Positions 4,370-41,484 of a stretch of 64,000 nucleotides of DNA are shown piece by piece (position 1 is the stretch's first letter; every line of letters starts with the position of its first letter). Made by a program: the position numbers and the translations under genes. The stretch spans positions 1,166,501 through 1,230,500 of the forward strand of contig NZ_CP017267.1 in NCBI RefSeq assembly GCF_001870205.1, read 5' to 3'. The notes beneath the pieces were generated by a model. That model did no database searches. It worked only from the letters and a program-made list of their open reading frames with translations, and was not told the DNA's origin. The DNA comes from Vagococcus teuberi (GTDB lineage: Bacteria > Bacillota > Bacilli > Lactobacillales > Vagococcaceae).

Positions 4370-5147
4370 TTTTGTTTTCTCTTTTTGGAATCATTTCCTT
4401 CCAATTTTGCATATCATCAATAAATTTTTTACTTTTTAACTGCAACCCAACGTATTCTTCATAGATGGAATCAATCACTTGTCTAATGTATTGTTTCGTC
4501 TCGTCAGATAAGTTAATACTTTTAATCTGTTCAAAACTAATGTGATTAAATAATCGAATAAAATGCAATGCTCTTGGTGAGTAGTGAAACCTTCGATCAT
4601 CCATTGACCAATGTTTTTGGCACAACACACCGTGATATTTATCAGAAAAATCAAATGGTTCCTCTTGACTGCCACAAATGGCACACGATGAAAAATTAAG
4701 TTGGATGCCAAAACGTTGAAGCAGTTGTATTTCAAAAATATTGGTGATTATTTCGGCATCATAGCCCTCATCTATCAGGGTTAGTGAGTCTTTGATAAAA
4801 CCAAATAAAAACGGATCATAAACATTATCGTCAATGGCAGCATCACTTAAATTAAGGATATAAGTAGCATAGGCTGATAAAAAAATATCCTGTTGAATCG
4901 CAAAAAAAGGATGAATGTCTTTGGCAGAGTTTAAAAAAGAGAGACCTTCTTCTTTTAAATCACCAATGTAATTGGCTTGAGTAAAGGGTTGGATGGCTGA
5001 ATTGATTTGACTGTTCTTTTTATTCGCGTGACGCACAAAAAACATGCGTTTGCCACTTGATTCAGTAAAAATCTTAACAAGTTTATCACTCTCACGATAA
5101 TTTCTTGAAAAAAGAACAATCCCATTAACCTCTTGTGGTCCTCTCAA
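4344..5147 (-). CDS. recO: DNA repair protein RecO
   Basis: RecO loads RecA onto SSB-coated single-stranded DNA in the RecFOR recombination pathway. The 267-residue length fits the family. The N-terminal OB fold starts with the typical GIVLFSRNYRESDKLVKIFTE pattern, and a four-cysteine zinc-binding cluster follows in the middle (CAICG and GVLCQKHW). The position directly downstream of era is classic Firmicute synteny. A hairpin with a T-run separates it from era, so it may be partly uncoupled. The promoter of the glyQS T-box leader lies in its last codons. Confidence 0.94.
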   Translation of the reverse strand: MRGPQEVNGIVLFSRNYRESDKLVKIFTESSGKRMFFVRHANKKNSQINSAIQPFTQANYIGDLKEEGLSFLNSAKDIHPFFAIQQDIFLSAYATYILNLSDAAIDDNVYDPFLFGFIKDSLTLIDEGYDAEIITNIFEIQLLQRFGIQLNFSSCAICGSQEEPFDFSDKYHGVLCQKHWSMDDRRFHYSPRALHFIRLFNHISFEQIKSINLSDETKQYIRQVIDSIYEEYVGLQLKSKKFIDDMQNWKEMIPKRENKIDKQDNTN

Positions 5148-5167
5148 TTTCTCACCTCCTTAAATGA

Positions 5168-5194
5168 ATAAAAAACATGGAAAAATCCATGTTT
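5168..5194 (-). terminator. Hairpin with T-run between era and recO
   Basis: The palindrome AAACATGG-A...T-CCATGTTT is followed on the minus strand by TTTTTTATT. It lies directly after the era stop codon and before the recO ribosome site. It may only partly terminate, lowering recO expression relative to era. Confidence 0.6.
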
Positions 5195-6098
5195 AATAAT
5201 CTGTTTCTCTGTATCCGTAATTTTGTAAATCACGACGTTTATCACGCCAATTTTTTTGTACTTTTACCCACAATTCTAAGAAGACTTTATCACCTAAAAG
5301 GTTCTCAATATCTTTACGACTTTTCGTTCCGATATTTTTAAGCATTTTACCACCTTTACCAATAATAATGCCTTTTTGGCTATCGCGTTCCACTATGATT
5401 GTGGCTTGAATATGAATTTTATCATGATCATCACGTTTCATGCTTTCTGTTACGACCGCTACAGAATGAGGAACTTCTTGTTCCGTTAATTGTAAGACTT
5501 TCTCACGAATAAGTTCGGACACGATAAAATACTCCGGATGGTCAGTGACTTGATCATCTGGGAAAAACTGTGGCCCTTCTGGCATATCATTTACCAAGGT
5601 TTCTAATAAATGTTCCACATTATTTCCTTCCGTGGCAGAGATTGGGACAATTTCTTTAAAATCAAGCTCTTGACGGTAATCATCAATAATCGGTAACAAT
5701 TCATCTGGATGAACGGTATCAATTTTATTAATGACTAGATATACAGGAGCATCCGCTTTCTTCAATCGTTCGATGATAAAGTCATCACCACGACCTCTTG
5801 GCATGTCCGCACTCACCATAAAGATAACGGCATCGACTTCACGTAACGCACTATAGGCTGTTTCAACCATAAAGTCGCCTAATTTATTTTTTGGTTTATG
5901 AATTCCTGGCGTATCAATAAACACAATTTGTGCTTCTTTTGTTGTATAAATTCCTTGAATTTTATTTCGTGTTGTTTGAGCTTTATTACTCATAATCGCA
6001 ATTTTTTGAGCCACAATACGATTTAATAAGGTTGATTTCCCGACGTTTGGTCTTCCGACAATTGCGACAAATCCTGATTTAAAATTTTGTTCTGACAT
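5193..6098 (-). CDS. era: GTPase Era
   Basis: Era is an essential GTPase that binds the 3' end of 16S rRNA and helps 30S subunit maturation. The 301-residue protein has the G1 loop GRPNVGKST near residue 15, switch motif G3 DTPGIHKP near 61 and G4 NKID near 123. A C-terminal KH RNA-binding domain carries the [14 protein letters not shown] motif. The position between dgkA/ybeY and recO is conserved in Firmicutes. The gene order supports a ribosome-assembly and RNA-maturation operon with ybeY. Confidence 0.97.
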
Positions 6099-6113
6099 TC
6101 AATTTATCCTTTC

Positions 6114-6518
6114 TTAACGACCTACTAAAAATGATATTATTTTAGGTAGGAAGATGATCATCCCCACAAATATAGCAAAAAAGGCACTGAGTAACACCAT
6201 ACCGGCAGCCATGTCTTTTACTTTTTTCGCTAAAGGATGATATGTTTTATTTGTTACTAAATCAACTAATACTTCAAATGCTGTATTGGTCATTTCAGCC
6301 ATCAATACTAACACAATCGCACAAATTAACCATAACCATTCAGCGATTGAAATGTGACAGAAAACACCCAGTATAACCGCACTGAGTCCTAACAATAAAT
6401 GGTACTTCATGTTTCTTTCTTCTTTTATCACAGTCTTTAATCCATATAATGCATGAGTTAAAGACTGGATAAAACGTCGATTTTTCTCAGTTTGTTTATC
6501 GTTCCAAGCCATACGCAT
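6114..6518 (-). CDS. dgkA: Diacylglycerol kinase family protein (undecaprenol kinase)
   Basis: This is a small integral membrane kinase. In Gram-positive bacteria the DgkA family phosphorylates undecaprenol to recycle the cell-wall lipid carrier. The 134-residue protein has three predicted membrane helices and the signature MAEMTNTAFEVLVDL, with catalytic and metal-binding acidic residues. Two in-frame starts (6518 and 6512) both overlap the end of ybeY; the second, MAWNDKQ, is equally plausible. The operon context ybeY-dgkA-era is conserved. Confidence 0.92.
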   Translation of the reverse strand: MRMAWNDKQTEKNRRFIQSLTHALYGLKTVIKEERNMKYHLLLGLSAVILGVFCHISIAEWLWLICAIVLVLMAEMTNTAFEVLVDLVTNKTYHPLAKKVKDMAAGMVLLSAFFAIFVGMIIFLPKIISFLVGR

Positions 6519-6972
6519 CTAAAATCTTTCTCTGTAGATCAAACATCTCTTTCTCATCTTCTGGTGTCATATGGTCATATCCATTAAGATGCAAAAATCC
6601 ATGAATCGTTAAAAAACCAAGTTCTCTATCAAATGAATGGTCATATTCTTCTGCTTGTTCTTTCGTTCGATCAACAGAAATGAATAAGTCCCCAATATTT
6701 CTTGGTAAACCAAGTTCTTCTAAATCAAATTCAAAACCTGATAAATCATCTTCTTCTAATGCAAAACTGATTACATCAGTCGGACGATCTTTTTGACGAT
6801 GCTCTTTGTTGATTTGATGAATTTCTTCATCATCAACAAACGTCACTGACATTTCCGTATTTTCTGGTAGATTAATGACTTCTTGTTTCGCTGCAAAATC
6901 TATAATCGTTGAAACCAAGTTTAATTGTTCGTCTGTAAGTGTGTTCGTTTTATCGAGGAGTACCAAATCCAT
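6496..6972 (-). CDS. ybeY: Endoribonuclease YbeY (rRNA maturation factor)
   Basis: YbeY is a zinc-dependent single-strand RNase involved in 16S rRNA 3' processing and ribosome quality control. The 158-residue length is typical. The metal-binding signature HGFLHLNGYDH (three histidines) is near residue 120, preceded by the family motif DRPTDVISFA. The gene starts 2 bases after the pgpH stop and overlaps dgkA, so it is translated as part of a phoH-pgpH-ybeY-dgkA-era operon. Confidence 0.96.
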   Translation of the reverse strand: MDLVLLDKTNTLTDEQLNLVSTIIDFAAKQEVINLPENTEMSVTFVDDEEIHQINKEHRQKDRPTDVISFALEEDDLSGFEFDLEELGLPRNIGDLFISVDRTKEQAEEYDHSFDRELGFLTIHGFLHLNGYDHMTPEDEKEMFDLQRKILDAYGLER

Positions 6973-6974
6973 TG

Positions 6975-9146
6975 TTAAATCCTTCTTTCTTCTTGTTCTT
7001 GTTTCATTTTTTCTGCTTCTGATTTCATTTTCGGGTATTTAATTCGTGAATGGAATGTTGAACATAACCCGTCCACTAAGGATTTTTCAATTATAGCAAT
7101 CTCATCCAATGTTAAACCTGATTCATTTAACTGCCCATCTTCTAATCTTGATTGAATTAAGTTATGGACAAATTCTTTGATTTTTTCATTCGTTGGGTGA
7201 TCCATCGCACGAACAGCTGCTTCAGCACTATCAGCAATATTAATCACACCAGCTTCACGAGATTGAGGTTTTGGTCCAGGATATCTAAATGCCTCTTCAG
7301 TTGTCTCTGGATTTCGTTCTTGTTCTTTAATGAAGAAATACTTCATCAAGGTTGTCCCATGATGTTGTTGACACACATCAATGACAAATTGTGGCATATT
7401 AGCTTCTTCTAGAATCTTCACACCATCTGTCACGTGACTAAATATAATTTCTTTACTATCTGATGGTAACAAGAAATTGTGAGGATTTTCCGCCCCATCT
7501 GGTAAATTTTCCACGAAAAAGTTTGCGTGTTTGATTTTACCCACGTCATGATAGTAACTTGCCACGCGTGTTAATAACGAGTTTCCTCCAATTTGAGCGA
7601 CGGCGTTTGCACTTAAACTAGCCACCATCATACTATGATGGTACGTTCCAGGAGCTTCTTCTAACAATTGTTTCAATAAAGGTTGATTTGGGTTACTTAA
7701 TTCATTTAATACAATCACACTATCATCTGTTAACAATAGTTCGATGTACGGATATAGCCCAATAGATAAAATAAATGAAAATAGACCACTACCTGTTGAA
7801 ATAAATAACGTTGTAATAGAACGACTATCTCCAATATTAAAGCCTTGATAAATCACTAATACTGCCATAAATAAAATGGGCATAATGATTAATAAAAAGA
7901 AGGACTCTTTCAACTGTGCCCCAATCCGTTTGTTTACTAAAAATGTCGCAACAAACGCAGAGAACATGTAAAATAGCGAGATAACTAAAAGTGACGTCGT
8001 ACCGGCAAGGTTATAAAAGATAAAGATTGAGAAAATTGCTTGGAACATCCCCATCAGTAGTCCCCATCGTTTATCTAAAAACATATACAAAATAACCGAG
8101 CCAAATGCCGCGGGGAATAATAAAGAGACGTTACTTAAGCTATCTTTTTGTAACAGATAAAGTAATTTCATAAACAGGACACTTACCGTAATAGCAATTG
8201 TGTACAATGTCACACTTTTAACGCGAATCTCTTTATCTGAATGGCATAAAATATAAATAATCAATACAATTTGTAATACAATCGCTAATATCATCGATAA
8301 AAGCGGTGATGTCGAGGTTGATTGATTCGTTAAGCCAAGCAACTTAATTTTTTCCATTGCTTTTGAATCAATTTGTTCCCCTTCTCGAACAATGATTTCA
8401 CCTTGATAAATCATCACAGGAAGCACATTATTTTTGGCATTTTCTTTCATTGCTTCTGTCGCTTTGTCGTTGACTACTTCATTGACAACAATCGCTTTAT
8501 CAAAAATCATAACCAAGAGATTCAATTCTTGAGATGTTAGCTCTTTGTACTGAACCAATTCTTTGGCTGCTTGTTTTTCACTCTGTAATGTTGAGTTTCG
8601 AATATGTTTCGATAAAATTGTTTTTAACGTACTTTCTGCTGCTTGTTCTAGATTATCAAGATCACTTGAAGATAGCTCCAGTAATTCTTCATAAAACGTA
8701 TCTGGAAAAGATTGAAAGAAAGCAATATCTGTTTGGTTAAATTTTTCAAAATTCGATTTTAGCATCGGCAATTTATCTTCTACTGTAGGTTTAGACGAAC
8801 TTTTTTTGTCATTATACTGTTTTTCTGCTGCCTCATTGACTTGCTTAACCAATTTAAAAATCGTTTGGACAGACTCTACTTGTTTTGCTTCAACATCTGG
8901 ATTAAACGTATATTCTGGCGTGATACTTTCCATCGCCAACCGTTGTTTTTCTTTTGTTTCATCCTTATTTTCAATTGTTTTATTAGCACGAATGGTCTCA
9001 CTAGATAATTGCCCGACTTTATAAGTCACTTGCTTTTGTCTAACACTACCAAACATCAAACCAAACATGATTAAAGACATTAAAAATAGAATTAGAGGTG
9101 TATAATATTTTCCAAGTGCTTTAGGCACTTGTTGTATTGTTTTCAT
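6975..9146 (-). CDS. pgpH: Cyclic-di-AMP phosphodiesterase PgpH (7TM-HD protein)
   Basis: PgpH-type proteins hydrolyse the second messenger c-di-AMP at the membrane. The 723-residue protein shows the full family architecture. There is one N-terminal membrane helix, an extracellular 7TMR-HDED region to about residue 270, a block of about seven membrane helices, and a cytoplasmic HD domain in the last third. The HD domain contains YHHSMMVA, the metal-binding YYHDVGKIKH and a downstream QQHHGT. The position between phoH and ybeY is the conserved one in Firmicutes. A role in osmolyte and wall homeostasis is known for the family. Confidence 0.95.
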   Translation of the reverse strand: MKTIQQVPKALGKYYTPLILFLMSLIMFGLMFGSVRQKQVTYKVGQLSSETIRANKTIENKDETKEKQRLAMESITPEYTFNPDVEAKQVESVQTIFKLVKQVNEAAEKQYNDKKSSSKPTVEDKLPMLKSNFEKFNQTDIAFFQSFPDTFYEELLELSSSDLDNLEQAAESTLKTILSKHIRNSTLQSEKQAAKELVQYKELTSQELNLLVMIFDKAIVVNEVVNDKATEAMKENAKNNVLPVMIYQGEIIVREGEQIDSKAMEKIKLLGLTNQSTSTSPLLSMILAIVLQIVLIIYILCHSDKEIRVKSVTLYTIAITVSVLFMKLLYLLQKDSLSNVSLLFPAAFGSVILYMFLDKRWGLLMGMFQAIFSIFIFYNLAGTTSLLVISLFYMFSAFVATFLVNKRIGAQLKESFFLLIIMPILFMAVLVIYQGFNIGDSRSITTLFISTGSGLFSFILSIGLYPYIELLLTDDSVIVLNELSNPNQPLLKQLLEEAPGTYHHSMMVASLSANAVAQIGGNSLLTRVASYYHDVGKIKHANFFVENLPDGAENPHNFLLPSDSKEIIFSHVTDGVKILEEANMPQFVIDVCQQHHGTTLMKYFFIKEQERNPETTEEAFRYPGPKPQSREAGVINIADSAEAAVRAMDHPTNEKIKEFVHNLIQSRLEDGQLNESGLTLDEIAIIEKSLVDGLCSTFHSRIKYPKMKSEAEKMKQEQEERRI

Positions 9147-23870: not shown

Positions 23871-24130
23871 AAAAGCTTCCGTCCTTTATCTACTTTACAT
23901 AAGTAAACAAAGGACGAAAGCGTTGTTTCGTGTTACCACCTTTTTTCATTATTACCTCACGATAATAATCTTACCCAGTACGCAAGCGAGTCGCTTTAAA
24001 TACTGTTGTCCGGTAACGGGAACTCCCGAAAAATACTAGCGGTAGACGCTCATACTTTTATGCTCAAAGACCATCTTCTATTTCCTTCTTGTTCCTCTTT
24101 CTCACCATCCGAGGTCTCTTTATACAATCC
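23871..24130 (-). ncRNA. Methionine T-box leader with terminator, upstream of metNIQ
   Basis: On the minus strand the T-box AAGGTGGTAACACG is at 23929-23942. It is followed by a terminator hairpin (23875-23921; the GCTTTCGTCCTTT arm pairs with AAAGGACGGAAGC) and a T-run before metN. The UGGU of the T-box loop matches a tRNA with discriminator A, as tRNA-Met has. Further upstream are a GC-containing stem region and candidate ATG specifier triplets, but I did not resolve stem I. The T-box is non-canonical (AAC where ACC is usual). It should switch on methionine uptake when tRNA-Met is uncharged. Confidence 0.85.
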
Positions 24131-24329
24131 AAAAATATACTCTTCTTTTCAAAGCAATGATTTATAAGGCATATAATAACAAATGAAAAAATGCCTGTCA
24201 ACAATTTTATTCGTCATTTTTTATAATTATGACTACTTAGTTTACGTTGCTATTCTACCATAATCATTGTAAAATATAGTAGTAGTAATACAGTAGCGTT
24301 TACAAATATTATTTGAAGGAGCTAATTTT
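24131..24329. promoter_or_regulatory. deoC upstream region with a cre-like site
   Basis: This stretch is very AT-rich and divergent between the Met T-box start and deoC. At 24290-24305 the minus strand reads TGTAAACGCTAC, matching most of the catabolite-responsive element consensus (TGWAANCGNTNWCA) bound by CcpA. It lies about 25 bases before the deoC start, where binding would block transcription. A GAAGGAG ribosome site follows. The cre match is imperfect. Confidence 0.4.
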
Positions 24330-24977
24330 ATGGATTTAGCAAAATATGTCGATCACACGTTATTAAAACCAGATGCCACAAGAGAGCAAATCAAAACATT
24401 GTGCGAGGAAGCCGCAGAATATGATTTCGCCTCAGTTTGTGTCAATCCTTTCTGGGTAAGCTATGCAGCAGAAATTTTAGCTAATGCAAAAGCAAAAGTG
24501 TGTACAGTTATTGGGTTCCCTCTAGGAGCAAACACAACAGAAACCAAAGTATTTGAAACAACAAATGCTATTGAAAATGGTGCAGAAGAAATTGATATGG
24601 TGATTAATATCGGTGCACTAAAAAATAAAGAATACGATATCGTAGAACAAGATATTGCAGCAGTTGTTAAAGCAAGTCATCCAAAAGCGATTGTAAAAGT
24701 AATTATCGAAACATGTCTTTTAACTGACGAAGAAATCGTTAAAGCATGTGAATTATCTGTTGCAGCAAATGCTGACTTTGTTAAAACATCAACAGGATTC
24801 TCAACTGGTGGTGCAACACCTAAAGATGTGAAACTAATGAAAGACACGGTTAAAGACAATGCATTTGTTAAAGCATCAGGTGGCGTTCGCTCTAAAGAAG
24901 ATGCCTTCACGATGATTGAAATGGGTGCTGACAGACTTGGAACAAGTTCTGGAATCCTTTTAATAAAAGAAGACTAG
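24330..24977 (+). CDS. deoC: Deoxyribose-phosphate aldolase
   Basis: DeoC cleaves 2-deoxyribose-5-phosphate to glyceraldehyde-3-phosphate and acetaldehyde, the last step of deoxynucleoside catabolism. The 215-residue class I aldolase has the [14 protein letters not shown] start. The Schiff-base lysine lies in [16 protein letters not shown] near residue 152, and the second lysine in [13 protein letters not shown]. It is monocistronic here, without deoA/deoB/pdp neighbours. Confidence 0.96.
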
Positions 24978-24982
24978 AACAT

Positions 24983-25033
24983 AAAAAAGTCGATCAATTC
25001 TTGCTAATAACAAGATTTGATCGACTTTTTATT
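24983..25033. terminator. Bidirectional terminator between deoC and the SIS gene
   Basis: AAAAAGTCGATCAA...TTGATCGACTTTTT is a 14-base perfect stem with inner complementarity (TTCTTG/CAAGA), flanked by A and T runs. The convergent SIS-domain gene ends right beside it. Confidence 0.88.
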
Positions 25034-26038
25034 TTAGTAATCAAATTGTCGATAGTAACGGCGGATGTCTAATGGATGACAATTTAGTTTTTCAACATAA
25101 GCGTCTATACGTTGTGTCACACAGTGCATTAGTAAATATGATAAGACACGTCCTCTATTTTTCTCACTTATACCATCCACTGGATAATCTTTTGTGTCAA
25201 TAAAAGTATAATTAGCACAAATTCGAGGTAAAAGATTTTTTACACGTTCTGATAACATACGCTGCTCATCTTCTCCTAAAAATAATGTCACAGGAGTAGT
25301 TTCATCAATAACTTCTAAAGTGCCATGTAAAAATTCAGCAGAATGAATTGATTTAGAACGTAACCAACTTTGTTCTTCCCAATAACACATTGCATATGAG
25401 TATACTGCCCCCCACTGGTTACCTGCCCCTATAAAATAATGCATTGCATCATGACGATGTTTTTGTGCAAATTCCAAACCAAAACTATCTGCTTTCTTTT
25501 CAGCCTCAACTAAACCTTTCGCTAAATAGTTATCTAATTCCGCATAGTACTCTTCATAGTCATCAAAGTCGCCATTTCTATTCATTAAACGATCAGCTAC
25601 CATAAAATATTTAATTTGTTCTGTTCCTAATGGTTCGTAACAAACAACGTAATCACATAATTCAGCTAAAATACTCCCTGCTTTATCAATAAACCCAAGT
25701 AGTGTTGCACCGACTTCTTTCATTTCTTTCACTGCACGAACAACCTCTTGTGTCGTACCAGTAACTGAAGATAGAATGACTAAAGATTTTTCAGTTAATC
25801 GTCTATTTCCCGTTGTATAATACTCTGCTGCATGTTGGACATAAACTGGTAAATCACTTCTCCCATTCATATATGTTACTGCTTGCATACCCGAAGCATA
25901 TGTTCCACCAATTCCTAAGTAAAACACATTATCAAAACCTTCATCCCACACTTTATCGATGATTTCTTCAACAGTAGGTCTTAATTCTAAAGCACCCTGT
26001 ATTGTATCAATTTGTTGTTGTTCATTAAATTTTAGCAT
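25034..26038 (-). CDS. SIS-domain sugar isomerase/deglycase, FrlB-like
   Basis: The 334-residue protein has two SIS sugar-phosphate-binding domains, with YLGIGGTYASGMQAVTYM near residue 40 and SSVTGTTQEVVRAVKEMKEVG near residue 90. The second half contains SKSIHSAEFLHGTLEVID, the region holding the catalytic glutamate and histidine in fructoselysine-6-phosphate deglycase (FrlB) and relatives. Such enzymes split a phosphorylated Amadori compound into glucose-6-phosphate and the amine. It is the last gene of the PTS operon. Glucoselysine-type or glucosamine-phosphate-type substrates are possible alternatives; the epimerase neighbour favours a glycated amine. Confidence 0.75.
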   Translation of the reverse strand: MLKFNEQQQIDTIQGALELRPTVEEIIDKVWDEGFDNVFYLGIGGTYASGMQAVTYMNGRSDLPVYVQHAAEYYTTGNRRLTEKSLVILSSVTGTTQEVVRAVKEMKEVGATLLGFIDKAGSILAELCDYVVCYEPLGTEQIKYFMVADRLMNRNGDFDDYEEYYAELDNYLAKGLVEAEKKADSFGLEFAQKHRHDAMHYFIGAGNQWGAVYSYAMCYWEEQSWLRSKSIHSAEFLHGTLEVIDETTPVTLFLGEDEQRMLSERVKNLLPRICANYTFIDTKDYPVDGISEKNRGRVLSYLLMHCVTQRIDAYVEKLNCHPLDIRRYYRQFDY

Positions 26039-26077
26039 ATTTTTATCCTCCTAATAATCTTGTTTTATTAAAATTTA

Positions 26078-26902
26078 TTATCCTAAAATGCCATACCAAG
26101 TCAGTAAGACACCGATAATTGCTGCTCCTAAAATTTGCCATAATACATTAACTTTTCGTTTATTGAGTTTATAGAATATATATAAAACTACTAAACTCAT
26201 TAATCCTGGCATCATGCCATCTAATATATTTTGTAATGTTTGTGCTTCATCTCCACTACCTAACTTCAAAGTAAAGTTAATCGCAACCATTTCATTTGTC
26301 ATGGCTCCAATCACCATTACTCCTAAAATAGATGCAGCTTTTTTAAAGGTTTCCATTAACCCAGACTCTTGAATCTTAGTTAGATATCCTACTCCTAATT
26401 TATAACCTGACATCACACCATAGTATCTTAGTAAGTAAGCTGGAATATTGTAGAGTAACAGGAACAATATTGGGCCCAGGATATTTCCTTTTTCTGCAAG
26501 AGAAACAGCTAGTCCTGTTGCTATTACACGAATGGTTCCCATGAAAATAGAATCACCAATTCCGGAAAGGGGACCCATTAATGCTGTTTTAATCGAACTA
26601 ATTGAAGAAAGATCAAAGTCATCACTGTTAGCATTTGTTTCCTCCATTGAAGCAACAACTCCACCTATAAAAGGTACAATTTGTGGTGTACAATTAAAAA
26701 ATTCCATATGTCGTTCTAGAGAATTAGCATACTGCGCATCATCTTCTCCATACAATTTTTTCATAAGTGGCGACATCATATGAGCAAAAGCTAAATGCAT
26801 TTGCCTCTCATAATTCCAACCAAATTCCATTGGCAGTGAGCGCCAAAATATACGCATTAAATCTTTCTTCGTTACTTTTTTTTCATTAGAAGTCATCATC
26901 AT
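26078..26902 (-). CDS. Mannose-family PTS, IID component
   Basis: This is a membrane subunit of a mannose-type phosphotransferase importer. The 274-residue protein starts with the family pattern KKDLMRIFWRSLPMEFGWNYERQM. It has the GPLSGIGDSIFMGTIRVIATG loop near residue 110 and a C-terminal membrane helix. The ATG run overlaps the IIC stop by 17 bases, behind AAGGGGTGG. Together with IIC it forms the channel for the sugar substrate. Confidence 0.92.
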   Translation of the reverse strand: MMMTSNEKKVTKKDLMRIFWRSLPMEFGWNYERQMHLAFAHMMSPLMKKLYGEDDAQYANSLERHMEFFNCTPQIVPFIGGVVASMEETNANSDDFDLSSISSIKTALMGPLSGIGDSIFMGTIRVIATGLAVSLAEKGNILGPILFLLLYNIPAYLLRYYGVMSGYKLGVGYLTKIQESGLMETFKKAASILGVMVIGAMTNEMVAINFTLKLGSGDEAQTLQNILDGMMPGLMSLVVLYIFYKLNKRKVNVLWQILGAAIIGVLLTWYGILG

Positions 26903-27674
26903 CTTCCACCCCTTGACCTGTTATCGTATTTGTCATTGAATGTGAACCTGTATTATTAAATTTCATTGTTATAAAAATCAGAACCAATCCAAACATAGCA
27001 ACCCCTAATACTGGAACATGGAGATACGATGACAATAAAAATCCTAAAAAGAAGTATGGAATAATTGATTTATTCAAAATCATTTGTAATAAAATTGCGA
27101 ATCCAATTGCGGGTAATAAGTTTGCAGAAACTTCTAAACCGTTAATAATTTTATCTGGTATCATGGAAAGGACATGCTCGATTTGTGAGCTACCTAGATA
27201 AAACCCAAGGAAGCATAGTACACCGCGTCTAGTACATTCTAATAAACCAATCGTCCACATAGATTTGGTGATACCTCTAGCATTCCCTTCTGAAGCTGCA
27301 CGATCTCCTGAATGGGCAATCATTGGAAATATAATACTTAATAAGTTCCCAATAGCTAAAGACAACATTGCTATTGGCATGGCTATAGTTATTGCTGCTC
27401 CAACTCCTTGCCCTAAACTAATAGCAAAAGCAGTTCCTAATACGCCACCAACAATCACATCAGGTGGTAAATAAGCTCCAACGGATATTGCTCCCATAAA
27501 AATTAATTCTAATGAAGCACCAATTATAATCCCTTGTGTCAAATCACCTAAAACTAATCCTACTAATGGCCCCATAATAATTGGACGATTTAATAAATTT
27601 GATCCAATAGCAAAATCCATAGGTCCTAAAAATCCAATTAATCCGATTAACAGTGCAGGCACTATATCTCCCAT
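26886..27674 (-). CDS. Mannose-family PTS, IIC component
   Basis: This is the polytopic membrane channel subunit of the mannose-type PTS. The 262-residue protein has about six to seven hydrophobic helices, with the family regions RPIIMGPLVGLVLGDLTQGIIIGASLELIFMG and GAYLPPDVIVGGVLGTAFAI. The ATG follows AAGGAGG. It is placed between the FrlC-like epimerase gene and IID, in the operon served by the sigma-54 promoter at 29463-29481. Confidence 0.93.
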   Translation of the reverse strand: MGDIVPALLIGLIGFLGPMDFAIGSNLLNRPIIMGPLVGLVLGDLTQGIIIGASLELIFMGAISVGAYLPPDVIVGGVLGTAFAISLGQGVGAAITIAMPIAMLSLAIGNLLSIIFPMIAHSGDRAASEGNARGITKSMWTIGLLECTRRGVLCFLGFYLGSSQIEHVLSMIPDKIINGLEVSANLLPAIGFAILLQMILNKSIIPYFFLGFLLSSYLHVPVLGVAMFGLVLIFITMKFNNTGSHSMTNTITGQGVEDDDDF

Positions 27675-27687
27675 ATTTAATTCCTCC

Positions 27688-28542
27688 TTAGTTTAACGTT
27701 TTCTTCAAAAAATCAATTGCTCGTTTATCCACATCAAAAGGATGAGCAAAATATCTACTTTGCGCAAACTCAAATGTTAAATTTCCTGCATAACCGTTAT
27801 CATGTAATCTTGATATATCCTCTAGAACATCTCTTGTACCTTCTCCCCAAGAAAGATGACCAGTGGGATTACCATCAACAAAATGGCAATGTCTAATACT
27901 ATTTGGAAATATTCGGTAATAATCGTCAATTGTTTCGTTAGCTCGAGACATCGCTCCAAAATCTATATTAATAAATACATTATCACTACCCATTCCTTGT
28001 ATGTATCGTTGTAAATCAGACAACGAATTAACTATGTTTGATTCTTCTGGCTGAAGAGCTTCAAAAACAATTGCTACATCAAACTTTTTAGCAAAATGTG
28101 CTAGATAACTCATGTTCGACATAGATCTTTTAAAAGCCTCATCTATGTTTTCATTATAAAAATTCCATCCTGAATTCATTGATATGTAAGGACTTTCCAA
28201 TTCAGAAGCTACCCGAATCGTATTTTCAAAGTAACTAATGGCTTTTTTTTGTAGTAATTCATCTTTCGCTGCAAGATTGTACGGCTTTGGGTTACTCTGT
28301 TCTGGCGTCACACATATAGTTTTTAAACCATATTTTTTCTGTTTTTTTAAAAATCGTTTGGTATCTTGGTAAGTAAATTGATTAATATCAAAATGCTGAG
28401 TACATGTCCATAATTCTAATTGTGTAATGCCATTTTTATTAAGCGACTCGTAAAAATATTCTATAGGGTAATAACGATAATAATAATTCATCCCTGCTAT
28501 CCTTGAAAACCAATCAAATTCACTCATTTTAAATAACATCAC
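27688..28542 (-). CDS. Xylose-isomerase-like TIM barrel protein, FrlC-like 3-epimerase
   Basis: About 280 residues of AP-endonuclease-2/xylose-isomerase-fold TIM barrel. It resembles fructoselysine 3-epimerase FrlC as I recall it: CVTPEQSNPKPYNL (FrlC: TPE..YPYN), VFEALQPEESNIVNS (the metal-binding glutamate; FrlC: EPLTPYESNVV), INIDFGAM, HCHFVDGNPTGHLSWGEG and a final FEFAQSRYF glutamate. FrlC interconverts psicoselysine and fructoselysine. Here it sits between PTS IIB and IIC, overlapping IIB by 14 bases. Start choice is uncertain (GTG 28542, ATG 28539 or ATG 28527), as none has a good ribosome site, so it may be translated by coupling to IIB. Confidence 0.72.
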   Translation of the reverse strand: MMLFKMSEFDWFSRIAGMNYYYRYYPIEYFYESLNKNGITQLELWTCTQHFDINQFTYQDTKRFLKKQKKYGLKTICVTPEQSNPKPYNLAAKDELLQKKAISYFENTIRVASELESPYISMNSGWNFYNENIDEAFKRSMSNMSYLAHFAKKFDVAIVFEALQPEESNIVNSLSDLQRYIQGMGSDNVFINIDFGAMSRANETIDDYYRIFPNSIRHCHFVDGNPTGHLSWGEGTRDVLEDISRLHDNGYAGNLTFEFAQSRYFAHPFDVDKRAIDFLKKTLN

Positions 28543-28999
28543 TTGCCATTATTTTTTTATCAGATGGAACTTGTCTTATTTCTACTTCAACATTGTTAGC
28601 TAATAACTCATGTATTAAATCTTTCTCATGCGATGTAACATTTACTGCTTTAGAAATATTTTCCTTATCTGTGCTGGCCTTAGTTCCTCCTAAATTAATT
28701 TGCTTAATATCTGGATAAGCTTTAGCTAATTTATAAGCATCTTCTATCGATTCAACAACAATGAACAATTTATACTTATCAGTTACCCCACTTTTCAGTG
28801 CTTTAATTGAGTCCTCTATATTTTTTATAACTAACTTAACTCCTTGTGGTTTAGCTAACTTTATTGTCGTTTTTCTTAAATCGTTATTAGGGACATCATC
28901 ATTAGCTATTAAAATACAATCTGTTCCTAAATCTTGTGTCCACGTAAAAGCCACTTGTCCGTGTAATAAACGGTGATCAACTCTTGTCAGTAATATCAT
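28529..28999 (-). CDS. Mannose-family PTS, IIB component
   Basis: This cytoplasmic phosphocarrier passes phosphate from IIA to the incoming sugar. The 156-residue protein has the phosphorylated histidine in RVDHRLLHGQVAFTW (His14 or its neighbour, as in the family), followed by the typical IIB-man core (LIANDDVPNND, INLGGTKAS). The ATG follows AGGAGGG. It stands between IIA and the FrlC-like gene. Confidence 0.94.
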   Translation of the reverse strand: MILLTRVDHRLLHGQVAFTWTQDLGTDCILIANDDVPNNDLRKTTIKLAKPQGVKLVIKNIEDSIKALKSGVTDKYKLFIVVESIEDAYKLAKAYPDIKQINLGGTKASTDKENISKAVNVTSHEKDLIHELLANNVEVEIRQVPSDKKIMASDVI

Positions 29000-29010
29000 G
29001 TAAATCCCTC

Positions 29011-29436
29011 CTAAAATTCTTCTTCTTTAACTTGTAATTCATTTTTTAAAATGTTATTACAAAATTGAATGGATACTTTACTATTTGATAATGCTTCATT
29101 TATGCAGTCTTCTAATGAGTGAACAAATTCAATTTGTGTGACCAATTCAACAAGAAAAGGGAGATTCATCCCTGCCACTAAAAAGAAATTTGAATTACGG
29201 ATATATTGCAAAAATTCATTATTCACACTACCGCCAAAGATATCTGTAACTACAATAATTTCTTTTTCTTGATTATTATTTATTATCTCACTTACTTCAC
29301 TAGCTAAATCAAATGACTCTTCTGTATAACAATCTAATGCTTCAATATTTGTTTGTTTACCACAAATCAGTTCTAAAGATGATAAAATACCTGAAGCAAA
29401 GGACCCATGAGATGCTAGAATAATTCTTCTTTCCAA
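29011..29436 (-). CDS. Mannose-family PTS, IIA component
   Basis: IIA accepts phosphate from HPr. The 141-residue protein has the phosphorylated histidine at position 10 in LASHGSFASGI, and the VVTDIFGGSVNNEF segment typical of IIA-man. Translation starts at TTG 29436 behind AAGGAGG. It is the first gene of the IIA-IIB-epimerase-IIC-IID-deglycase operon and lies 27 bases downstream of the -12 element of a sigma-54 promoter. Confidence 0.93.
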   Translation of the reverse strand: MERRIILASHGSFASGILSSLELICGKQTNIEALDCYTEESFDLASEVSEIINNNQEKEIIVVTDIFGGSVNNEFLQYIRNSNFFLVAGMNLPFLVELVTQIEFVHSLEDCINEALSNSKVSIQFCNNILKNELQVKEEEF

Positions 29437-29452
29437 TGTTCCACCTCCTTAC

Positions 29453-29503
29453 ATAAAAATAAAAGCAAATAGCATGCCAAAAATAATCGGCAAACTATTT
29501 GCT
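29453..29503 (-). terminator. Terminator of the LevR-type regulator, overlapping the sigma-54 promoter
   Basis: On the minus strand AGCAAATAG (29495-29503) pairs with CTATTTGCT (29464-29472), with an inner TGCC/GGCA stem, followed by TTTTATTTTT. It lies directly after the regulator's stop codon. Its 3' arm is also part of the -24/-12 promoter. Confidence 0.75.
29463..29481 (-). promoter_or_regulatory. Sigma-54 (-24/-12) promoter of the PTS/Amadori operon
   Basis: On the minus strand TTGGCATG-CTAT-TTGCT has GG at 29477-29478 and GC at 29465-29466, separated by exactly 10 bases, matching the sigma-54 consensus TGGCAC-N5-TTGCW closely. It is directly upstream of IIA, next to a gene for a sigma-54-dependent LevR-type activator. 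Enhancer sites would be expected about 100 bases upstream, inside the regulator gene; I could not identify them. Confidence 0.82.
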
Positions 29504-29505
29504 TT

Positions 29506-32277
29506 TTAAAAATCAGATTCAATCATTGATATATCAGATTTTTTGAAAATAATATCATAAACGTAGGCTACTTCTGAATTTGGTACATTGACACTATAAT
29601 CACTTTCTATGACACTAAAGGCTTTTTTAATCAAAGATAACTCTCTTTGATGACACTGAGCTAATTCATCATATTGACTATATGTTTCTATAGGAATATT
29701 TCTAATTAACCTTTCAATCAAACAACTAATATGAACATACAATGCTATTTTTACATTATTACCTAATAATAGATTAAAAAGAAACTCTATTTCTCTAAAG
29801 AAATCTTCTATTTCATGAATCACTTTATCCGTATCTAAAATTGTTACAGACTGAATCACCTTCTCTAAAGAAAATGAGCGAATAATTCGTTTATTGAACA
29901 AGTCTTTTTCTTCTTTCGTCATAACAGAGGATAAACCATCCATCAATCGATTTGTATCTTGACCTGAGATCAATTCCTCAAGTGAGACATACATTAAATT
30001 TTCTATGTTTGGATTTTCTGTTCCTACAATACCTAAGACATCGTAGACTGAAAAAATAGTGTCGTCTTTTTTGTTTACATGTAAGGATTCATAGGAATAA
30101 GGCATAATCTTCAAGTCGCATGATACTGGTAAGCTCTTTTCTAATAGTTGATTAATTTGTCTAGCTGTACCTATACCCGTTTGACATACAGTTAAAAGTA
30201 CTTTTTTTCTATTTTCTTGAGGATAGATAATTTCCCAATCTAATTTTGCTGAATCAACAGATTGTTCAATCATTTCCTCAAAAGGTAATTTTTTCTGTAT
30301 ATTTTCTCCTATAGACAACGCTAATGGTGTACTAACATTATTGACCACAATAATAGGTGTCTCAATTTGCTTGGGGAAAAACTGATATAGTTCCCTTAAT
30401 GATCCCATGTCAACAAGAATAATCAATCCGTTTGATAACTCATTTTGCGTGCAATAGTTTATAATTTCTTCTGAAATTTGTTTCGTAGTAGTTTCAAGAG
30501 GCATGTCAAATGCTTCAAAAATTTCTTTCTCCAACAAACGATTCACAACATTTGAAATACTACTTGCTGTTGCATAACCGTGAGCAACTATAATCGCTTT
30601 AGGTATTCCTTGTTCTTTTTTCCAATCAATTTTTTTAAAATATAGTGTTAAAATAATATAATCCATTAAAGCAATATCTAAATCGATAAGAGGCTGACAA
30701 ATATTTAGAATGCGACTAACATAATGATAACTGTCAGGGTATAAAGATTTAATTTCTTGATTAAGATGAGCAATACTTTTCGATAATTCATCATTTTCTG
30801 GATACCATTTTGTTGAACCTCGTTGTAATAAATAGTAACTTAAAGCGTATACACTGTTGCCGTTAAATTGGATGCCATAAGCTGTTCTCATTTGACGAAA
30901 TGTTTCTCTAATATATTGTGTAACATATACTAGTAACTCATACTGTGAATAACGTTGTTTTGAAAAAAACAATTCATCAAACAATTTATTTATATGTTTC
31001 TTTATCTCTTCTTCACAAATTGATAAATCTTGATGATTTTCACGATAAATTAAAAGTACTTTTTCAAACGTCTCAATAACACCTTTTTGAGTTAATTGAT
31101 TTATTTTTATCATTTGTTGCAAAGTAGTATCTGACTTAATTAATATCTTGTTTTCATCAATATTATAAACTAATTGCTCTGTATCCCTTAACAAATAACT
31201 TGGTAAGTAATGTATAGAAATATTAACAACTTGCTCTGATTTTTGTTCCATAAATGCTTTTGCAACTGTTACTTTAACGCAATTTTTCAACTCACCTATA
31301 TTCCCTTTAAAGTGATTTCCAGCTAAAAGATTTATTACTTGAGACGAAATACTAATATCTTTTTGAATAATATGTCTTTCTGAGATAAAAAAAGAATAGA
31401 TTAATTCGATTCGTTCATTTCGGCTTCTTTCTTTAATGGATGGTAAAGTTATTTGAATAGGAATTCGTCGTATAAAGGTTGTTAAAAAATTACTTTCAAG
31501 ATCTTCTGTAGTAGCAAAAAATAATCGTGTATTTATATGGAGCGGGTGGCTATTATCACCTACTCTATATATAATATGCTGATCTAAATATGTGAATAGT
31601 TTTTCTTGCGCTTCAGCATTTAATCGATGAACCTCATCCAAAAATAATATTCCCTCGTTTGCTGATTCAAATATTCCTTGTTGCGTTTCATTAGCTCCTG
31701 TAAATGCCCCTTTAACATAGCCAAATAAATTACTTGTTAGAAGTTCTGGATTATTCGCATATTGAGCACAATTCAATGTAATAAACGGTGCATCTTCTTT
31801 AAGAATATCATTTTCAATACAATATTCATAAACCAATTTGACCAGATAACTTTTCCCAGTACCACTCTCTCCTGTAATAAGAACAGGTAAGCCATTATTA
31901 GGATAAGCTAATGACATTTTTATTTGGTCTATCGCTCTATTTAGGCTTTGATTATGTCCAATCATTAATGAAAAGAAATCTCTCTCTTTTTTAAAATAAG
32001 GCTTCTCATTTAATATCTCTTGAAAAGAAGAATAAACATTCTTCTTCAGCTTAAAATTTTCTTCTTCAAATGTTTTTTTACTCAAATAAAAAACTGGTCT
32101 AGAGTTAACTTTGATAAGTTTTCCCTCTGAAGTTAATTGATTTAGATAGTGACTGATTGTATTTCTTTTCACATTAAATATTTCAGCAATTTTTGATGCA
32201 GTGAATACATCACTTACATAATCAAAACTAAAAAATGAGGTTTGATTATCTAAATAAGCTATTATTTTTTTTTTCAT
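29506..32277 (-). CDS. LevR-family sigma-54-dependent PTS operon activator
   Basis: The 923-residue regulator has, in order: an N-terminal winged helix (about 1-75); an AAA+ sigma-54 activation domain with Walker A GESGTGKS near 130 and the sigma-54-contacting GAFTGA loop; a first PRD (about 430-530); an EIIA-man-like domain with AHG histidine near 560; an EIIB-like domain with TVCQTGIGTARQ near 690; and a C-terminal PRD with VHISCLIERL. PTS proteins phosphorylate such domains, so activity follows substrate flux and HPr state. I start at ATG 32277 behind GGGAGG rather than the TTG at 32292. Confidence 0.92.
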   Translation of the reverse strand: MKKKIIAYLDNQTSFFSFDYVSDVFTASKIAEIFNVKRNTISHYLNQLTSEGKLIKVNSRPVFYLSKKTFEEENFKLKKNVYSSFQEILNEKPYFKKERDFFSLMIGHNQSLNRAIDQIKMSLAYPNNGLPVLITGESGTGKSYLVKLVYEYCIENDILKEDAPFITLNCAQYANNPELLTSNLFGYVKGAFTGANETQQGIFESANEGILFLDEVHRLNAEAQEKLFTYLDQHIIYRVGDNSHPLHINTRLFFATTEDLESNFLTTFIRRIPIQITLPSIKERSRNERIELIYSFFISERHIIQKDISISSQVINLLAGNHFKGNIGELKNCVKVTVAKAFMEQKSEQVVNISIHYLPSYLLRDTEQLVYNIDENKILIKSDTTLQQMIKINQLTQKGVIETFEKVLLIYRENHQDLSICEEEIKKHINKLFDELFFSKQRYSQYELLVYVTQYIRETFRQMRTAYGIQFNGNSVYALSYYLLQRGSTKWYPENDELSKSIAHLNQEIKSLYPDSYHYVSRILNICQPLIDLDIALMDYIILTLYFKKIDWKKEQGIPKAIIVAHGYATASSISNVVNRLLEKEIFEAFDMPLETTTKQISEEIINYCTQNELSNGLIILVDMGSLRELYQFFPKQIETPIIVVNNVSTPLALSIGENIQKKLPFEEMIEQSVDSAKLDWEIIYPQENRKKVLLTVCQTGIGTARQINQLLEKSLPVSCDLKIMPYSYESLHVNKKDDTIFSVYDVLGIVGTENPNIENLMYVSLEELISGQDTNRLMDGLSSVMTKEEKDLFNKRIIRSFSLEKVIQSVTILDTDKVIHEIEDFFREIEFLFNLLLGNNVKIALYVHISCLIERLIRNIPIETYSQYDELAQCHQRELSLIKKAFSVIESDYSVNVPNSEVAYVYDIIFKKSDISMIESDF

Positions 32278-32308
32278 CAGCTTACCTCCCAAGAATAATC
32301 ATACAATA

Positions 32309-32350
32309 AAAAAGTATAGAAATCAGTTTAAAATAACTAATCTCTATACT
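32309..32350 (-). terminator. Terminator after cshB
   Basis: AGTATAGA-ATTAGT...ACTGAT-TCTATACT is a long stem followed on the minus strand by TTTTTTATT. The levR-type gene starts only about 35 bases further on, so its promoter must overlap this hairpin or lie upstream in cshB. Confidence 0.85.
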
Positions 32351-32359
32351 AAACCTACA

Positions 32360-33706
32360 TTAAAAATCTTGTTTTCTTGCTTTACGTTTGCTTCTATTTG
32401 ATTGACGTTGCTCGATTTTACGTTTTTGTTTTTGATCATCGGCAATTGCGTAACGAATTTTTTTCTTGTAACCTGGTTTGACTTTTTTCTTCTGTTTTTT
32501 CACCATACCAATCATCGTTGGGTCTAATTGTTTTTGCGTACGTGAACGTTGCTCACGACGATTTCGATCATAATGATCCACAATTTCCCCTTTTTTGATG
32601 GTTTTTGGTTCAAATCGAATGCCAAGTTTTTCTAATTCAGCAAGTGCCGCTTCATCTTTTGGCTCATATAATGTGATCGCAATACCTGGAAGTCCATTAC
32701 GACCAGTACGGCCCACGCGGTGAATAAAGAATTCTAGATCTTTTGGAATTTCCGCATTAATCACATGAGAAACGCCTTCAATATCAATCCCTCTAGCAGC
32801 TAAATCTGTCGCCACGACAAATTGATAATCTAAGTTTTGAATGCTTTTCATCACACGTTTACGTTCACGTGGTGGAATATCCCCATGAATCTTCGCTACT
32901 TTCAAGCCTTTTTCTTTTAAGAAATCTGTGATTTCATCGACTTTTTGTTTCGTGTTCGCAAATACCATCGCTAAAAACGGGTGGCCAATCGTTAATAAAT
33001 CATACACGACTTGCTCCACGTCTTTACTTTTTGTCGAGATAACCCAGTTGTCAATCGTATCAGAAATAACAGACGTGGGTTTGATATGTTTAACAACAGG
33101 ATTGTCCATGTATTTTTTCAAAAATGGTTTTAATTTCACTGGAATTGTCGCTGAGAAGACTAACATTTGTAAATTACCAGGTAATGTTGCGGCAATTTTA
33201 TCGACATCTTCTAAAAATCCCATGTCAAGTGTCATATCCGCTTCATCCACGACAAAAGCAAATGCTGTATGTGTTTTTAGTGCACCACTTTCGATTAAAT
33301 CTAAAATACGACCAGGCGTTCCAATCACTAAATGTGGTTGTTGGTTTGCTAACTTGTCCATTTGACGTTTTTTATCTGTTCCACCAACATAGTTGCTCAC
33401 ACGTAACTCATCATCATAGTGGCCAGCCAATTGATTGGCTGCTTGATAGATTTGTTCTGCTAACTCACGACTTGGTGCTGTGATAATGACTTGAACTTCT
33501 TCTTTTTTGGTATCTATTTTATTCATCAGTGGTAATAAAAACGTGTGTGTCTTTCCTGAACCTGTCTGTGATTGTCCAACAACACTTTTTCCTTTATTTA
33601 TCACTGGAATCAATGTCTCTTGCACTTCTGTTGCTTCTTTAAATCCTATTTCGTCTAATGCTTGGATTAAGTTATCGTTTAATCCGAATTGGTTAAATTT
33701 TGTCAT
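32360..33706 (-). CDS. cshB: DEAD-box RNA helicase, CshB-like
   Basis: This is a cytoplasmic ATP-dependent RNA helicase, of the type linked to cold adaptation and ribosome assembly. The 448-residue product has the Q motif, Walker A SQTGSGKT, motif Ia PSRELAEQ, DEAD as DEADMTLDMGF, SAT, and C-terminal helicase motifs ATDLAARGID and HRVGRTGR. A basic Lys/Arg-rich tail follows. The ATG at 33706 follows AAGGAAGGTG; a GTG at 33715 lies in that ribosome site. Confidence 0.93.
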   Translation of the reverse strand: MTKFNQFGLNDNLIQALDEIGFKEATEVQETLIPVINKGKSVVGQSQTGSGKTHTFLLPLMNKIDTKKEEVQVIITAPSRELAEQIYQAANQLAGHYDDELRVSNYVGGTDKKRQMDKLANQQPHLVIGTPGRILDLIESGALKTHTAFAFVVDEADMTLDMGFLEDVDKIAATLPGNLQMLVFSATIPVKLKPFLKKYMDNPVVKHIKPTSVISDTIDNWVISTKSKDVEQVVYDLLTIGHPFLAMVFANTKQKVDEITDFLKEKGLKVAKIHGDIPPRERKRVMKSIQNLDYQFVVATDLAARGIDIEGVSHVINAEIPKDLEFFIHRVGRTGRNGLPGIAITLYEPKDEAALAELEKLGIRFEPKTIKKGEIVDHYDRNRREQRSRTQKQLDPTMIGMVKKQKKKVKPGYKKKIRYAIADDQKQKRKIEQRQSNRSKRKARKQDF

Positions 33707-40089: not shown

Positions 40090-41484
40090 TTAATACATTT
40101 CTAAATATTGCTCACGTTCCCACTCAGATACTGATTGGCGATACGCATCCCACTCCATACGTTTTGCTTCGATGAAGTTGTTGAAGATATGACTTCCTAA
40201 TGCTTCTTTGACGATGTCGTCTTCACGCATTGCTTTTACAGCATTGTGTAATGTTGATGGTAAGTCCGTGATATGAGCTGCTTCACGTTCTTCTTCTGTC
40301 ATCACGTAAATGTTGCGGTCCACTGCTTTTGGTGGTTCGATTTTACGTTTGATACCGTCTAGTCCAGCTTGTAATAGCACTGCCATTGCTAAATACGGAT
40401 TAGCTGTTGGGTCAACTGAACGTAATTCTAAACGAGTTGATAAACCACGTGAACTTGGTACACGCACTAGTGGTGAACGGTTTTTACCACTCCAAGCCAC
40501 ATAAACAGGTGCTTCATAACCAGGTACTAAACGTTTGTATGAGTTAACAATTGGGTTACATACAGCTGTATATCCTCTAGCATGTTCTAACAAACCACCT
40601 AAGAAATGATATTTACTTCATTATTGCAGATATCCTCTACATTCTAACAAACCACCTAAGAAATGATACGCTGTTTGACTTAATTGATCTTCACCATTTT
40701 CGTCAAAGAATGCATTTCCTTTATCGTTAAATAAAGACATGTTGATATGCATACCACTACCAGCAATACCGTGTAATGGTTTTGGCATAAATGTTGCATG
40801 TAAACCATGCTTTCTAGCAATCGTACGAACAACTAATTCAAATGTTTGAATATTGTCACACGCTTCAATCGCATCTGCATATTTGAAATCAATCTCATGC
40901 TGTCCTGGTGCACACTCATGGTGAGACGCTTCTACTTCAAATCCAAGGCTTTCTAATTCTAACACAATATCACGACGGCAATTTTCACCTAAATCAACTG
41001 GGGCATAATCAAAATAGCCTCCTTGATCATTCAACTTTTTCGTCGCATTACCATTTTCATCTAATTTAAATAAGAAAAATTCAGGTTCAGGTCCAATGTT
41101 GAATCCTGTAAAACCTAAGTCTTCCATTTCTTTCATGATACGTTTTAAATTACTACGTGGGTCACCTGCAAATGGCTTGCCGTCTGTTCCGTGTACATCA
41201 CAAATCAAACGTGCCACTTTTCCTTTTTCACTTTCCCATGGGAAAATCATCCATGTTGAAAGGTCAGGATACAAGTACATGTCACTTTCTTCGATACGCA
41301 CAAATCCTTCGATGGAAGAACCATCAAACATCATTTTGTTGTCTAAAACTTTATCTAATTGGCTAATTGGAACTTCTACGTTTTTAATTCTACCTAAAAT
41401 ATCAGTAAACATTAGTCTTAAGAATCGAACATTTTCTTTTTCTGCAAGTGCTTTGATTTCTTCTCTTGTTGAATAATTTGCCAT
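40090..41484 (-). pseudogene. glnA: Glutamine synthetase, interrupted by a 57-base in-frame duplication
   Basis: GlnA joins glutamate and ammonia with ATP. Reading from 41484, the frame gives a normal N-terminus ([19 protein letters not shown]), [20 protein letters not shown] and the active-site MHINMSLF, then stops at 40621 after 287 codons. The remaining C-terminal part ([25 protein letters not shown] to the end) continues at 40593-40090. At the break a 38-41 base segment is present twice (40571-40611 and 40631-40668) around 19 unrelated bases that contain in-frame TAA and TGA. Deleting 57 bases restores a 445-residue enzyme, the normal length. The upstream copy carries three single-base deletions. 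Either the gene is broken or the assembly is wrong here. It follows glnR in an operon. Confidence 0.9.

Follow-up and report, generated by a model that had tools for sequence, protein, structure and literature searches.

A Gfr-like phosphotransferase operon with a FrlC-like epimerase gene in Vagococcus teuberi and its relatives

The stretch of Vagococcus teuberi DNA analyzed here, referred to as the window (64,000 nucleotides; assembly GCF_001870205.1, contig NZ_CP017267.1, positions 1,166,501 to 1,230,500 of the forward strand), carries an operon at positions 25034-32277, which are filled by seven open minus-strand genes. Judged by homology and gene order, the operon is a rare variant of a widespread Gfr-like operon family. 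It has two marks of a Gfr-type operon, a mannose-family phosphotransferase system (PTS) with a GfrF-type deglycase and a LevR-type activator with a predicted sigma-54 promoter. No GfrE-like second deglycase is found among its seven genes, and a FrlC-like epimerase gene stands between IIB and IIC. With moderate confidence, we interpret the operon as a Gfr variant that would import and phosphorylate a C3-epimeric Amadori compound, for example, psicoselysine, which would be epimerized as the 6-phosphate and then cut by the GfrF-type enzyme. The same explanation, held equally firmly, includes the exchange of a IIC/IID and GfrE block for a block made of the epimerase and another IIC/IID pair.

Gene content, deglycase, and epimerase

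The genes, in the order of transcription, and the element that follows them are listed below with the evidence for each.

29506..32277, minus strand: LevR/DagR-type sigma-54 activator (AAA+ domain with GAFTGA, EIIA-like domain, PRD); Pfam and NCBIfam
29011..29436, minus strand: PTS IIA (mannose family), with a TTG start preceded by AAGGAGG; open reading frame and Pfam
28529..28999, minus strand: PTS IIB (mannose/sorbose family); open reading frame and Pfam
27688..28542, minus strand: FrlC-like epimerase, a xylose-isomerase-like TIM barrel; Pfam, NCBIfam, and tree
26886..27674, minus strand: cassette PTS IIC; Pfam, matches among genomes, and tree
26078..26902, minus strand: cassette PTS IID; Pfam and tree
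25034..26038, minus strand: GfrF-group SIS-domain deglycase with E222, H238, and C-terminal RRYYRQFDY; PDB search, tree, and alignment
24989..25025, minus strand: likely operon terminator formed by an inverted repeat and T tract where the SIS gene and deoC converge; sequence

An earlier note on this DNA, made from the letters alone, had read the locus as an Amadori-type PTS operon with the TIM protein between IIB and IIC, the SIS protein last, and a LevR-type activator acting with sigma-54. The open reading frames and the Pfam families above cut-off agree with this layout, being Sigma54_activat, PRD, and EIIA-man for the activator, EIIA-man for IIA, PTSIIB_sorb for IIB, EII-Sor for IIC, EIID-AGA for IID, AP_endonuc_2 for the xylose-isomerase-like TIM barrel, and SIS for the last protein. 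The predicted sigma-54 control is likewise consistent with a -24/-12 site before IIA and with a single rpoN gene in this genome, and homology, gene order, and promoter support the Amadori-type reading as a whole. The activator gene starts with an ATG at 32277, preceded by GGGAGG, and its residues His571 and His854, counted along the longer open reading frame, are conserved in all 33 sequences of more than 800 residues, the window included. The GC content dips mildly to 28-31% over the part from IIB to levR, compared with 33-35% from the SIS gene to the TIM gene and 34-38% for most windows on the flanks; we make no use of this dip in the argument.

The best phmmer matches of the SIS protein in the PDB are full-length matches to 8glr (198 bits) and 2a3n (197 bits), both of which we take to be the Salmonella protein STM4540, followed by Bacillus subtilis FrlB (PDB ID 3eua, 116 bits). 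In a tree of 99 SIS rows, which has many long branches, a root that serves drawing only, and no AgaS row, the window protein lies within a 54-row group (support 100/100) containing GfrF (8glr), with FraB and both FrlB proteins outside this group and GfrE-like proteins lying toward GlmS. The identity is 33% to 8glr, 28% to 3eua, 27% to FraB, and 23% to Escherichia coli FrlB. The PDB ranking and the tree rule out FrlB as the closest relative; the earlier note had proposed an FrlB-like deglycase, of which the deglycase part stands and the likeness to FrlB gives way to a closer relation to Salmonella GfrF. The protein keeps E222 and H238, a Glu/His pair 16 residues apart, which we take to be the catalytic pair of an SIS deglycase, and the C-terminal tail RRYYRQFDY common to GfrF. 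The Glu/His pair occurs in GlmS too, and the tail is the specific part. Overall, the sequence places the SIS protein as GfrF-type, in the fructoselysine-6-phosphate deglycase group. The passages concerned of PMC4987338 identify Salmonella STM4535-40 as gfrABCDEF, and those of PMC12675984 and PMC12735817 describe GfrF as cleaving fructoselysine 6-phosphate and GfrE as cleaving glucoselysine 6-phosphate.

The best NCBIfam model for the SIS protein is the fructoselysine 6-phosphate deglycase (75 bits, cut-off 430), and that for the TIM protein is the fructoselysine 3-epimerase (108 bits, equivalog cut-off of 305 missed); by these scores, the models are relatives rather than equivalogs. GlmS models are among the NCBIfam matches of the SIS protein, and none of the 14 matching NCBIfam families is named for AgaS.

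The TIM protein, described as FrlC-like in the earlier note, does group with FrlC, in a 14-row group (support 84/98) that leaves out UlaE and two sugar 3-epimerase fragments; the tree rules out UlaE or D-psicose epimerase as its closest relative. The groupings named in the earlier note as counter-evidence, the SIS protein with GlmS-like or AgaS-type isomerases and the TIM protein with inositol or tagatose epimerases, did not appear in the two trees, of which the SIS tree had no AgaS row. The putative metal ligands E161, D194, H220, and E258 are invariant in all 10 aligned TIM sequences, the window included. We presume their role by comparison with D-psicose/D-tagatose 3-epimerases, and the set is not specific to FrlC. 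Twelve of the 14 rows in the FrlC group come from a stretch with a deglycase gene, the exceptions being loci L014 and L035. FrlC-like TIM genes also stand beside deglycase genes in other layouts, either with a PTS (L020 and L034) or with a kinase and an ABC (ATP-binding cassette) transporter or permease (L021 and L096). To our knowledge, there is no clear explanation of why bacteria need a fructoselysine 3-epimerase.

Residues R23 and K86 are present in all seven TIM proteins from stretches with a PTS and a deglycase (five of type B, defined below, plus L020 and L034) and in none of five with a deglycase and no PTS seen (FrlC, L021, L023, and two in L073). R23 and K86 support phosphate binding only weakly and could be a matter of ancestry, because the proteins of L014 and L035, which are PTS-linked without a deglycase and should also meet a phosphorylated sugar, lack them, and because an arginine occupies the position next after R23 in FrlC and in one protein of L073. 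Phosphate binding by the TIM protein would follow mainly from its PTS linkage.

Some related loci have neighborhoods of their own. L014 (same genus), L035, and L036 each have a PTS operon with a TIM gene (29-34% identity) and aldolase-like and dehydrogenase-like genes without a deglycase, which by gene content is a different sugar pathway. L034 (G408, positions 4675-8102) has the order SIS, HAD (haloacid dehalogenase) phosphatase, TIM, IIA, and IIB near a contig end, a further combination of deglycase, PTS, and epimerase. L021, on a conjugative Klebsiella plasmid (NZ_CP081815.1), has genes for an SIS protein, a PfkB kinase, an amino-acid ABC transporter, and a FrlC-like TIM protein in a row, so that glycated-amine use is possibly carried on a plasmid.

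Two operon types and a probable cassette exchange

We divided the loci with an SIS identity of at least 71% by gene order into type A (LevR-IIA-IIB-IIC-IID-GfrE-GfrF) and type B, which has the TIM gene between IIB and IIC and no GfrE. There are 46 type A loci (31 in a first set and 15 in a second set) and five of type B (the window, L012, L013, L032, and L033); L039 and L105, a fragment, were left out of the type count. The window SIS protein is 71-84% identical to the SIS proteins of the 46 type A operons. GfrE is missing in all five TIM operons with an SIS identity of at least 75%, the TIM gene is missing in all 46 GfrE-like operons with an SIS identity of at least 71%, and the two genes occur together in none of the 51 loci. 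Irregularities are L061, without an open reading frame for IIB; L050, L076, L116, and L120, with LevR as two open reading frames; and, in type B, L032, where LevR is truncated by the contig end. Among remoter operons with an SIS identity of 54-60% (L018, L067-L072, L075, and L078), there is a GfrE-like gene (31-37% identity, taking L018 as the reference) and no TIM gene.

The seven-gene type B order was found again in Vagococcus acidifermentans, in Enterococcus hermanniensis, and in G428 and G411, two genomes of the same family as the E. hermanniensis-like genome G222. This rules out a layout unique to the present genome. The earlier note knew of no description of the layout; it is indeed rare, yet not confined to this genome, as five operons share it. 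Among 395 genomes from the window's order (Lactobacillales-type), 62 match the SIS protein (E<=1e-30), eight the TIM protein (E<=1e-10), and 34 IIC (E<=1e-60); three of the IIC matches have at least 83% identity, and the next has 49%. The 105 genomes of the family of G222 include 46 with the SIS protein (E<=1e-150) and six with a TIM match (E<=1e-15), three of these six in the window layout. A TIM profile matched four of 398 genomes of the phylum (E<=1e-40), which are the window's own, G008 of the same family, G509 (kinase genes), and G452, where one of the two matches adjoins a kinase gene and the other stands alone. Scanning a collection of named genomes with two short patterns gave two loci, those of V. 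acidifermentans and E. hermanniensis. In G428, a type B operon lies on one contig and a fragment of a type A operon on another; the assembly is 88% complete with 6% contamination, which leaves their co-occurrence unproven.

Two further loci stand apart. L017 is a type A operon on an unannotated Enterococcus raffinosus megaplasmid of 1.19 Mb (NZ_CP072889.1), and L039 (G382:C42) has two adjoining GfrF-group SIS genes, with one stop inside a match and no PTS genes in the stretch.

The transporter and deglycase genes of the type B operons differ in ancestry. Within the five type B operons, IIC is 76-87% and IID 74-86% identical, against 41-44% and 48-55%, respectively, for type B compared with the type A operons of nearest SIS, whereas the SIS proteins are 81-95% identical between type B and the nearest type A and 75-83% within type B. 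Type B IIC forms one clade (support 99), as does type B IID (92, not starred), and a single type B clade is rejected for the SIS protein (p-AU, approximately unbiased test, 5.5e-11), with groups that were defined after the first SIS tree was in view. For IIB, a single type B clade is neither kept nor rejected (p 0.446), which may be because the L032 breakpoint falls inside IIB. L032 and L064, from one genus, show the junctions directly. Their proteins are 91% (LevR, partial), 81% (IIA), 81% (IIB), and 95% (SIS) identical, and those for IIC and IID are 43% and 52% identical; at the DNA level, the two are about 83% identical as far as base 331 of IIB and again from a point some 35 bp ahead of the SIS gene, and the stretch between has a single weak match of 99 bp. 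This mosaic ancestry would be explained by cassette exchange, which suggests a way for bacteria to switch between glycation products.

In the window, the operon occupies 7.4 kb (24978-32359) between deoC and a DEAD-box helicase gene. In three of six same-genus loci compared, these two genes adjoin, about 32-34 bp apart, and two of the three empty sites have 97-98% DNA identity to the window flanks; the remaining three stretches have no helicase match. The short deoC-helicase spacer contains a terminator-like repeat where the window carries the 7.4 kb. The 13 other sampled genomes of the genus gave no match to the SIS protein (E<=1e-30), and gain of the operon is therefore likelier than many losses.

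Proposed pathway and alternatives

From the gene content, we infer the following pathway. The LevR-type activator and sigma-54 would switch the operon on when the PTS substrate is present, and IIA, IIB, IIC, and IID would import a glycated lysine-type compound, phosphorylating it presumably at C6. The FrlC-like enzyme would epimerize the 6-phosphate at C3, with the conversion of psicoselysine 6-phosphate to fructoselysine 6-phosphate as the best candidate, and the GfrF-type deglycase would yield glucose 6-phosphate and a free amino acid. With the GfrE block replaced by the epimerase block, the cell would trade glucoselysine use for the use of a C3-epimer. With the epimerase gene coupled to a dedicated PTS and to a deglycase, the substrate of the system could be identified through growth and enzyme tests.

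Several observations weigh against this pathway. The TIM protein scores below the NCBIfam cut-off and is only 23% identical to E. coli FrlC, its relatives from L014 and L035, encoded in PTS operons that have an aldolase gene and no deglycase gene, lack R23 and K86, and the arginine shifted by one position recurs in FrlC and one L073 protein. The GfrE label in type A is based on gene order and the tree position on the GlmS side, with no characterized GfrE in the tree. In PMC12675984, GfrE and GfrF are swapped in the figure 1 legend, and some growth on fructoselysine persisted there after gfrF had been deleted.

The substrate could instead be a different ketosamine, with an amine other than lysine or a sugar other than the psicose epimer, an epimerase acting at another carbon, and a GfrF-type enzyme of broad range. 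The distance of the type B IIC and IID from type A despite a conserved SIS protein would fit this, as would the several pathways that relatives of the TIM protein serve. However, the SIS proteins are as alike between the types as within type B, giving no sign of a new deglycase task, and the best-scoring model for the TIM protein is a fructoselysine 3-epimerase; we regard this alternative as rather unlikely. Plain fructoselysine use, with the epimerase as an accessory rescuing a minor epimer and no dietary substrate of its own, seems improbable to us. E. coli frlC does share an operon with fructoselysine genes, but here the epimerase travels with its own IIC and IID and replaces GfrE, which suggests a changed imported substrate. 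A role of both proteins, SIS and TIM, as isomerases of amino sugars or of common sugar phosphates, in an operon unrelated to glycation, is very improbable, since the SIS tree and the C-terminal tail point to the deglycase group, apart from GlmS and GfrE-like proteins, and TIM and deglycase genes are repeatedly found together, even though both folds are common to many isomerases and the SIS protein matches GlmS models and shares its Glu/His pair with GlmS.

The absence of a GfrE-like gene applies to the seven genes of the operon; elsewhere, the genome was searched with the FrlB model and with no GfrE query, and that model found this SIS protein and GlmS.

Known systems resemble the operon in part. 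The gfrABCDEF genes of Salmonella and their Enterococcus relatives were reportedly described by Miller et al. in 2015 and Wiame et al. in 2005. According to the passages concerned of PMC12675984, PMC4987338, and PMC12735817, these Gfr systems share with the present operon a mannose-family PTS, a GfrF-type deglycase, and a LevR-type sigma-54 activator; unlike them, the operon has no GfrE, a FrlC-like TIM gene between IIB and IIC, and another IIC and IID. E. coli frlABCD likewise combines a deglycase and a FrlC-type epimerase in one operon, with a transporter and kinase there in contrast to the PTS here and with only 23% identity for each of the two enzymes. The Collinsella aerofaciens region L020 (NZ_OY725717.1) also has a PTS, two SIS proteins (37%), and a TIM protein (36%), but in another gene order, with a major facilitator superfamily gene and with a GfrE-like SIS gene (32%) upstream, so that GfrE-like and TIM genes are both present there. 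Our literature search of titles and abstracts, partial in coverage and thus weak evidence of novelty, returned no PTS operon with a FrlC-like gene and no overlap of a promoter with a hairpin.

Control region

The elements between and within the activator and IIA genes are as follows.

29464..29480, minus strand: sigma-54 -24/-12 promoter TTGGCATGCTATTTGCT; site search
29461..29506, minus strand: terminator-like hairpin from the levR stop codon, enclosing the promoter; folding (-25.3 kcal/mol, z -7.95) and covariation
29652..29657, minus strand: AGTGTC repeat 1, candidate activator site inside levR, at -179 from the -24 GG
29611..29616, minus strand: AGTGTC repeat 2, candidate activator site inside levR, at -138 from the -24 GG
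29590..29595, minus strand: AGTGTC repeat 3, candidate activator site inside levR, at -117 from the -24 GG

The promoter reads TTGGCATG-CTAT-TTGCT at 29480-29464, between the activator and IIA genes. The 64-kb window has two -24/-12 sites against 0.08 expected, the second being at 40782, and there are no Rfam matches in 24000-33000.

The arrangement is common to type A and type B and was found in 50 loci, the window included, although kinship among the loci inflates the counts given here. A -24/-12-like site lies 150-200 bp behind the AGTGTC repeats in all 36 type A and B loci of the first set. In all 36, three or more bases of the promoter spacer are paired in the predicted hairpin, and the -24 GGCA is paired in 35. 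In the second set of 15 loci, unused in discovering the pattern, it is present in all but L120. Across 30 aligned hairpin elements, 85.0% of the cells pair, and 66 cells are changed on both sides; shuffles gave 22.2, with none of 500 reaching 66, and slid versions at most 25. The margins are smaller for two milder measures, double-changed pairs (10 versus 7.1 in shuffles, reached by 7 of 500) and further pair types (27 versus 22.6, reached by 10 of 500).

In 35 loci, the 10,080 nt immediately before the promoter contain 105 copies of AGTGTC or GACACT, and the 83,366 nt beyond, mostly levR sequence, contain 20. The word AGTGTC stands at repeat 3 in all 36 loci and at repeat 2 in 33, even though AGT makes up only 38% of serine codons and GTC 24% of valine codons in these genes; the window's three repeats fall in two reading frames.

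For comparison, we used seven other sigma-54-like promoters (L014, L035, L036, L074, L099, L103, and L104), none of which has the AGTGTC triple; single AGTGTC/GACACT words lie upstream in five (L014, L035, L036, L074, and L104). Both the -24 box and the spacer are paired in two (L035, -13.1 kcal/mol, and L104, -16.9 kcal/mol), two others pair the -24 box with little or no spacer (L074 and L099), and three pair neither. The energies of 35 operon hairpins, -15.3 to -33.0 kcal/mol, overlap the range of the comparison promoters. Overlap of hairpin and promoter is thus not specific by itself, because some comparison promoters fold alike, and the evidence lies in its constancy and covariation. The hairpin may act as a terminator and the AGTGTC repeats as an enhancer; a promoter inside a hairpin that is also a terminator would be an economical design with comparative support.

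More broadly, and only tentatively, Gfr operons may be modular. A transporter-plus-enzyme cassette, reaching from inside IIB to just before gfrF, would be swapped between lineages and change the glycated amine eaten, here to a C3-epimeric Amadori compound handled as the 6-phosphate by a PTS-adapted FrlC relative. A compact control block would drive the whole family: one element would serve both as terminator of the activator gene and as sigma-54 promoter for the operon, and the enhancer would be embedded in the activator's coding sequence. With this arrangement, transcription running on past the activator could not turn the operon on.

In the CelR-cel system of Bacillus thuringiensis and the LevR-lev system of B. 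subtilis, too, a LevR-type activator has its sites ahead of a -24/-12 promoter, with three upstream activating sequences (UAS) in cel according to PMC10864463; unlike there, the candidate sites here are inside the activator gene and the promoter is inside a hairpin. UAS motifs of four PRD-type activators were published earlier, as the relevant passage of PMC6615313 indicates, and GfrR is perhaps one of them.

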